Shown: positions 62,428-63,699 of the stretch, one piece after another
Layout of the letters: every line of letters begins with the position of its first letter
How positions within the stretch are numbered: the stretch's first letter is position 1
Source of the DNA: Propionibacteriaceae bacterium
GTDB lineage: Bacteria; Actinomycetota; Actinomycetes; Propionibacteriales; Propionibacteriaceae
Direction: 5' to 3'
Length of the DNA stretch: 64,000 nt
Assembly (NCBI GenBank): GCA_031266665.1
Contig: JAISAO010000084.1
Coordinates: forward strand, 1-64,000
The notes under the pieces: generated by a model
What the model was told of the DNA's origin: nothing
The model's database searches: none
The model's input: only the letters and a program-made list of their open reading frames with translations
Position numbers and translations under genes: made by a program

Positions 62428-62540
62428 ATGTCTTGAGCCTACCGGGCGGGCCTGATTTGATGATGGGCCCCAGGTAGGCTGCCTCCCGGCCGGGCCGGCC
62501 AATAACAAAATATAAGTTTAAAATGGTTGAGGGGTGGAAG

Positions 62541-63539
62541 ATGGCTTATGTGGTGGCGGTCGACGCCGGCGGCACAGCCACGCGCGCCGTTGTGGCCGAT
62601 GTCGAGGGGCGGTGCCTGGGCTACGCCTTGGCCGGCGGCGGCAATCCGGTGTCGGCCGGGGCCGAAGCGGCGATGATCGCCTTCCGGGACGGTTTGGAGC
62701 GAGCCTTGGGGCAGGCCGGCGTGGCCGGTGACGAGGTCGAGTTGGTGTTGTTGGCGATGGCCGGCGATGTGGTGGGCGACCGGGCGGGAGAGTTGAGCCG
62801 ACTGCTGCGCCACCTCGGACTGACGGCCCCGGCCGTGGTCGAGGGCGACCTGCTGGGGGCCTACTGCTCCGGGGCGCCCGAATTGGACGGCTACTGCCTG
62901 GAGGCCGGCACGGGCTCCGGGGCCATCCGGGTCGAGGGCGGGCGGCTGGCCGCCTCGGCCGACGGCCTGGGATGGCTGCTGGGCGACGAGGGCTCCGGCT
63001 TTTGGATCGGCCGCCGCGCCTTGGCGGCGGGGCTGGCGGACCTGGACGGGCGCGGCCCGGCCACCGGGCTGACCACCTTGGTGTTGGCCGAGTTGGGGCT
63101 GCCCGACGACCGACGGCCGGGGGAGCACGGCCGCCCGGCAGTGATCGACCAAGGGCTGCGCTTGGTCTACGCCGACCCGCCGGTGGCGCTGGCCCGCTTC
63201 GCCCGACTGGTCTTCGAATTGGCCGACGACCCGGTGGCCCAGTCAATCCGCCAGGCGGCCGGCCGACGGCTGGCGGCCACCCTGGGGGCACTGGTCGTGC
63301 CCCAGGTGGCCGGGCCGGTGGTGTTGGCCGGGTCGGTCCTGACTCGCCAGCCCGAGTTGGCCGCCCAGGTGAGCCGGGCCGGCGCAGCCGGTTTCGCCCG
63401 CCCGCCCGAGTACCGGTTGGTGGCGGACGGGGCCGTCGGAGCCGTGGTCTTGGCCCTGCGGCGACTCGGCCGTCCGGTCGACCGGGCCGTCTTCGAGCGC
63501 GTCGCCGCCACTTTGGGGGCCCTGCCAGGACGCCGCTAG
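62541..63539 (+). CDS. BadF/BadG-type ATPase, N-acetylglucosamine-kinase-like
   Basis: 332 residues of the ASKHA fold: phosphate-1 VAVDAGGTATRAVVAD, GGGNPVSAG, phosphate-2 region CLEAGTGSGAIRVEGG, DGLGWLLGDEGSGFWIGRRAL (typical of GlcNAc kinase-like proteins) and adenosine motif VVLAGSVL. Likely phosphorylates an amino sugar in the cytosol. ATG 62541 follows gaggggtgg; AT-rich DNA with tataag (62511) upstream may be its -10. The TAG stop (63537-63539) is made from bases at the left boundary of a MITE-like inverted repeat, so the original C-terminus may be shortened. Confidence 0.82.
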   Translation: MAYVVAVDAGGTATRAVVADVEGRCLGYALAGGGNPVSAGAEAAMIAFRDGLERALGQAGVAGDEVELVLLAMAGDVVGDRAGELSRLLRHLGLTAPAVVEGDLLGAYCSGAPELDGYCLEAGTGSGAIRVEGGRLAASADGLGWLLGDEGSGFWIGRRALAAGLADLDGRGPATGLTTLVLAELGLPDDRRPGEHGRPAVIDQGLRLVYADPPVALARFARLVFELADDPVAQSIRQAAGRRLAATLGALVVPQVAGPVVLAGSVLTRQPELAAQVSRAGAAGFARPPEYRLVADGAVGAVVLALRRLGRPVDRAVFERVAATLGALPGRR

Positions 63540-63699
63540 ATGGTTGATTCCAAGGGCTGGGCGATGGATTCGCGCTCAGGCGGCGGGCCGGCAAGGAAGA
63601 GGAGGGAGGCGATGTGTCGCATCGTCGACCGACGATGACGCCGTCCGGCGTGTCGTCTGGGCGTGAGGACGAGCCCATGGCTTGGAATCAACCATCTAG
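63536..63699. mobile_element. MITE-like element with 19-bp perfect terminal inverted repeats
   Basis: ctagatggttgattccaag (63536-63554) and its exact reverse complement cttggaatcaaccatctag (63681-63699) bound a 164-bp segment with no gene. Inner sequence also pairs partly (catcgtcg...cgacgatg). If the outer TA of CTAG is the target duplication, the element is 160 bp with termini GATGGTTGATTCC, the pattern of Tc1/IS630-type MITEs. The left TA supplies the first two bases of the upstream gene's stop codon. Confidence 0.6.

Follow-up and report, generated by a model that had tools for sequence, protein, structure and literature searches.

A CTAG-flanked MITE with IS982-type ends at the stop codon of a kinase gene, and a core common to Actinomycetes elements with differing ends

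The palindromic element at positions 63536-63699 of the window (the whole 64,000-nucleotide stretch of Propionibacteriaceae DNA analysed here) is very probably a MITE with IS982-type ends, inserted at the CTAG that holds the stop codon of a kinase gene, and a member of a group of Actinomycetes MITEs in which a folded centre has been kept. An IS982-family transposase acting in trans would recognise the terminal 15-20 bp or so (ATGGTTRATTCCAAGGG), and an element of about 156 bp would have been inserted at CTAG with duplication of 4 bp; the target here being the CTAG with the TAG stop of the kinase, the end of the gene would have been left unchanged. Members of the wider group have the same centre of about 57 nt and nearly the same total length, about 155-170 bp, with ends that match different insertion sequences.

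The element and its copies in the host genome

Read at the coordinates given above, the element measures 164 bp, both CTAGs included. The 19-bp perfect inverted termini (CTAGATGGTTGATTCCAAG at 63536-63554, its exact reverse complement at 63681-63699) and the CTAG ends described in the original prediction are all present. If mismatches are tolerated, each arm extends to 27 nt with 89% complementarity, and the pair comes third in the window-wide list of inverted repeats lying within 400 bp. Folded as a single strand, the element forms one hairpin of -111.2 kcal/mol (-71.3 in shuffled sequences, z = -10). It is found once in the 64-kb window, and carries no transposase gene, 164 bp being too short to encode one. 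Features are listed in Table 1.

Table 1. Features of the kinase gene and of the adjoining element, in window coordinates
Feature	Position	Strand	Remarks
Host gene, BadF/BadG/BcrA/BcrD-type ATPase (sugar-kinase-like)	62523..63539	+	PF01869, E 5.8e-24; start perhaps 62541
Left target duplication CTAG	63536..63539	.	TAG within is the kinase stop codon
Left terminal inverted repeat, IS982-type	63540..63562	+	ATGGTTGATTCCAAG perfect, imperfect up to 63562
Conserved core match	63587..63649	+	covariance model R1, 71.7 bits, E 4.9e-18 in window
Core helix, 5' strand AGAGGAGGGAG	63598..63608	+	pairs with 63626-63636; three GA/AG tandem motifs
Core, apical part	63609..63625	+	G·T wobble and C-G junction pairs, then variable covarying stem-loop GATG...CATC
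Core helix, 3' strand CGACCGACGAT	63626..63636	+	A63598-T63636 replaces the usual G-C pair
Right terminal inverted repeat	63673..63695	-	inverted-repeat alignment
Right target duplication CTAG	63696..63699	.	flank comparison

The host assembly (3.28 Mb, 106 contigs, 94% complete) contains at least 40 matches, which are 90-100% identical to the element along most or the whole of its length, 40 of 112 candidates having been scored. A 15-nt stretch of the element end occurs 94 times in the same genome with at most one mismatch, against a single occurrence of the reversed control pattern. The search for other copies suggested along with the original prediction thus returned a dispersed family, and not a single-copy native sequence; the element is multicopy and non-coding, as proposed for a MITE-like segment devoid of transposase, and would need a transposase supplied in trans. 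A length below about 500 bp, terminal inverted repeats, a target duplication, the lack of a transposase gene and dispersion in many copies are all features by which MITEs are recognised.

Forty-three distinct host copies were analysed. Between their flanking 4-mers 39 of them measure 149-156 bp, and four measure 56 bp only; the flanks of the copies are unrelated to one another. The 56-bp copies lack the core described below and reside at different sites in the genome. Either the core was already missing when they moved, or it was lost at the present site, and their form is compatible with a deletion between two CTGGGCG repeats found in the arms. A 31-bp remnant and truncated copies are also present in the host genome. 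A second MITE end type, CTAGTGGTCTGTCGCATCTAAAAG, was found in the host at four places (contigs C50, C16, C49 and C92) together with the same core, two end types thus sharing one core in a single genome; no helper transposase was identified for the host family with these ends.

Several host copies (L013, L042, L047 and L082) adjoin a different repeat, ...CGGAGGGAGGACACTTCGTGGGGYGRCTAG, at its CTAG edge, an arrangement which suggests adjacent insertions of different repeats having CTAG in common. Facing ends 1.5 kb apart on a host contig (C8:2024-3567) were considered as a candidate autonomous parent and rejected, the locus being a MITE copy interrupted by an IS110-family element, which encodes a 391-aa transposase (PF01548 and PF02371). 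The insertion of the latter lies within the conserved purine strand of the MITE core, between GGAAGA and GAGGAG.

The core and its distribution

In relatives of the same genus, blastn often matched the middle of the element only, in sequences which have other ends. A pattern derived from this middle was found in at least 119 stretches when one genome per species was searched, nearly all from Actinomycetota, a few of the pattern matches being due to chance. Bases are conserved outside the search pattern too, on both sides; the apparent conservation is inflated by the fact that part of the cores were found with patterns built from the core itself. According to a covariance model (R1, 63 positions, the core itself spanning about 57 nt), hairpin elements with this core are present in 103 of the 394 Actinomycetes genomes sampled, and in 33 of 138 genera, with up to at least 13 matches per genome among the matches listed. 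The next best place in the window scores 15.5 bits, against 71.7 for the core. Scores were obtained also outside Actinomycetota, at 60.6 bits in a contig of a Clostridiales MAG (L200) and at 43.4 bits in a contig of Syntrophaceae (L134), which may represent transfers or mis-binned contigs.

The 178 distinct elements carrying the core fall into about 50 end types, some of which are over-split; ends are IS982-like, IS5-like or, in many instances, unassigned. Their total length is 163 bp in the median, and 118 of the 144 elements outside the family of the window element measure 155-170 bp. Over 32 representatives of different end types, information per position is 1.2-2.0 bits in the core, and mostly 0-0.6 bits in the arms. 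Had the elements descended from one insertion sequence, one would expect the opposite of differing ends and a conserved middle; the ends would have been exchanged, or would have re-evolved. Streptomyces elements with CTAGGGCCTGTCGTTTGGATC-type ends have the inner part of these ends in common with an annotated IS5-family element, which is bounded by CTAG-flanked inverted ends; a clean two-ended IS5-family match to CTAGGGCCTGTCGTTTGGATC, the commonest Streptomyces end, was not found, the likeness being limited to the inner part. In Frankia sp. CIT1 core variants were observed (L143, L151, L199 and L214), in which GCCGGGG... follows GTCGACCGACGA instead of CAACG; the variant is common to several copies, and therefore the altered core has spread as well.

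In the folded core strand an outer stem is followed by a short GGC/GCN helix with a bulge on either side, then by an 11-bp helix and, beyond a wobble and a C-G pair, by a variable stem. The consensus strands of the 11-bp helix are GGAGGAGGGAG and CGACCGACGAC; the helix includes three GA/AG tandem motifs, kept in 82 and 77, 83 and 84, and 81 and 81 of the 84 alignment rows. Pairs located between the tandems vary in a compensatory manner, the first from G-C to C-G and the seventh from G-C to A-T, each in 8 rows. At the junction 57 rows have a G·T pair, 10 a T·G, 5 a G-C, 4 a C-G and 3 a T-A pair; all these counts refer to rows that include related sequences, and are not independent events. In Nocardioides speluncae the outer tandem is turned into Watson-Crick pairs, the partner strand being unchanged. 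The covariation score is 0.359 (0.102 when shuffled, at most 0.074 when slid) in an alignment fitted to the model, and hence leaning towards it, and 0.320 vs. 0.102 in a MAFFT alignment that was not so fitted. Judging from the alignments, it is probably the folded core strand on which selection acts, and the centre would most likely be kept for its fold, that is, the 11-bp helix with its three 5'-GA/3'-AG motifs under a variable stem.

Cores show no preferred orientation relative to flanking genes: outside the host 41 are sense and 43 antisense, and in the host genome the counts are 7 and 9 respectively. The lack of bias speaks against a role in host mRNA, and the folded centre would act as ssDNA or RNA in the life cycle of the element itself. 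The G·A motifs can be formed by one strand only, which points to a strand-specific role in the replication, the excision or the transcript of the element, and this is our best guess. As to replication, the few positions listed hinted at a preferred orientation; origins could not be placed, and no claim is made. Putting these elements together, we tentatively propose that the core may be an as yet undescribed structured RNA or ssDNA module, marked by its three tandem G·A motifs and by a preference for a G·U/T wobble; widespread among Actinomycetes, it would ride small palindromic elements of nearly fixed length, whose terminal repeats would change to use the IS5- or IS982-type transposase of the host, the fold doing its job in the element cycle.

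Two other views of the core deserve attention. The core may have no function, being conserved because the elements descend from a recent common ancestor spread horizontally, with the palindrome kept by transposition or repair. This is less likely than not, since the core is nearly fixed while the arms are nearly unconserved across end types, and since arm-to-arm copying, by which a wholly palindromic element can acquire paired changes, would remove the GA/AG mismatches, although 77-84 of 84 rows retain them. In favour of a function-free core are nonetheless the many near-identical copies that single genomes contain, the unbiased orientation and the persistence of coreless 56-bp copies. Less probable still is a core that is bound by a protein as ordinary double-stranded DNA. 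A binding site of this kind would agree with the long, nearly fixed stretches GAGGGAGG and CGACCGACGA, but not with the compensatory changes seen across the hairpin strands (G-C to A-T or C-G; G·T to T·G, C-G or T-A), because duplex binding would not require them. Should the folded core have a role, it would add a new kind of cis-acting component to those of bacterial MITEs; core hosts include Streptomyces, Frankia, Kribbella and Nocardioides, and some of them are tractable in the laboratory, which makes the question testable.

Ends, target site and the kinase stop codon

The end of the window MITE reads CTAG followed by ATGGTTGATTCCAAGGGC. A 30-nt query made of the MITE end detected similar ends in Streptomyces and Rhodococcus plasmids, where they flank IS982-family transposases. 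A protein search with one of the plasmid transposases led to five identical IS982 elements of about 1.05 kb in an order-level relative (G047), with ends CTAG followed by ATGATCGATTCCAAGGGG, and one IS982 element in a genome of the same genus (G015), with the end CTAG followed by ATGAGTTATTCCAAGGGG. IS982-type transposases with such ends score 186, 174 and 199 bits with the family model (NCBIfam NF033520; equivalog cut-off 130), which assigns the MITE to the IS982 group, its termini being like those of elements whose transposase passes the family cut-off. Autonomous elements sharing the ends of the MITE thus exist in relatives and on plasmids; the 106 contigs of the 94% complete host assembly, searched at E 1e-10, yielded no such IS982 transposase.

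Variants of these arrangements were also encountered. In the Streptomyces plasmid NZ_CP108366.1 (L303, 2503-4357) IS982-type ends are 1.85 kb apart and enclose, in addition to an IS982 transposase, a putative metallo-hydrolase reading frame, perhaps a passenger gene. Solitary left ends of about 30 bp, TAGGGCCTGTCGTTTGGATCAGGCCGG, with no right end nearby, were observed in a Streptomyces-type genome (L266, L278 and L284). No autonomous element with the ends of H27-C3 (TAACGACCTCGGGGGCAATGG) or of Nocardioides speluncae (CTAGTGGNCA...) was identified in the sequences examined; in plasmid searches, the end TTAGAGGTTCCGCC gave one weak match with no inverted partner, and the end CTAGTGGTCTGTCGCATC no match.

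CTAG is found at 80 of the 86 flanks of host copies, the exceptions being one-sided changes, and at 10 of the 10 ends of the five IS982 elements of G047. In the sister genome G013 one copy lies between two CTTG tetramers, and therefore the 4 bp belong to the target, which is duplicated, and not to the repeat. This bears on the assignment to the IS630/Tc1 type, with a TA target, made in the original prediction. The element is a palindromic MITE with TA inside CTAG, and TA is the target of ERIC, the Correia element and similar hairpin MITEs; the ends of the window element, however, match IS982 elements, and the bases duplicated are four (CTTG/CTTG in G013, CTAG elsewhere) instead of the two of a TA duplication, which leaves an IS630/Tc1 origin highly improbable.

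The CTAG tetramer is about four-fold under-represented in the window (43 found vs. about 177 expected from base composition), and 4 of the 43 sites contribute a predicted stop codon. In contrast, 15 of the 43 host MITE copies adjoin a predicted stop codon through their CTAG (Fisher p = 0.008; both counts rely on gene calls made with a simple codon model). Selection against insertions within genes could explain much of this difference.

The TAG that ends the kinase reading frame (63537-63539) lies inside the left CTAG. The BadF/BadG/BcrA/BcrD-type ATPase assignment of the product is consistent with a sugar kinase. When the flanks are joined by script, the same TAG and the same kinase protein result. 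An orthologue in G013, the only one detected in the genus (53% identity; partial, the N-terminus being cut by the contig end), terminates with ...ATLTSLRAPGTV, the window kinase with ...ATLGALPGRR, the two ends falling within 2 residues. Because joining the flanks keeps the TAG, and the orthologue ends at nearly the same place, neither trimming nor extension of the kinase is indicated, and the gene would end where it did before the insertion. The proposal of a stop codon formed or altered by the insertion, and of a C-terminus perhaps trimmed by it, finds no support in these data, the TAG belonging to the duplicated target. The stop-codon story is an ordinary one: an element targeting CTAG falls on TAG stops, and the protein is unchanged. 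The view that the palindrome is a native terminator or regulatory structure of the kinase gene, and is not mobile, is barely credible: the hairpin is strong and directly 3' of the stop codon, but more than 40 copies have unrelated flanks, the ends are those of IS982 elements, and no terminator-like site with a T run was found.

Comparison with known systems

MITEs, MITEs derived from IS982 elements and CTAG targeting are already known. Neither the element nor its core has a match in Rfam 15, and no description of the core, nor of a folded core common to differing ends, was found in the literature searched, the coverage of which is incomplete (mostly without subscription journals); "not found" is not the same as "unknown". 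ERIC, Correia, RUP and NEMIS repeats are palindromic, intergenic, multicopy sequences of about 100-200 bp, thought to be moved in trans and targeting TA. They resemble the window element as palindromic multicopy repeats, and differ in the target, which is CTAG for the latter; we know of no structured core common to members of these families with unrelated ends. REP and BIME are palindromic repeats found near gene ends and associated with RAYT transposases, REPs being 20-40 nt in length, with a GTAG foot and no target duplication. The window element is not a 20-40 nt hairpin with a GTAG foot; it measures about 156 bp, and has long inverted repeats and a 4-bp CTAG duplication.

In Cardinium a MITE has been reported whose origin is an IS982-family element (PMC9769881). 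In the passages of that paper considered here, it is, as the window element, a short repeat without transposase, present in many copies, with IS982-like inverted ends; it differs in its size, about 240 bp, and in residing in an endosymbiont of another phylum. A conserved core, a CTAG target and a variety of ends are not mentioned in these passages. IS5-family elements of E. coli and Streptomyces have 4-bp targets which include CTAG (PMC11894529). An annotated IS5-family element and the ends of core-bearing Streptomyces MITEs have TCGTTTGGATCA in common, whereas the window element and the IS5-family elements have different end sequences. IS982-family insertion sequences (NF033520) differ from the MITE in their size, about 1.05 kb, and in the presence of a transposase gene; their ends, CTAG followed by ATGATCGATTCCAAGGGG, are very similar, and they are likewise flanked by CTAG.
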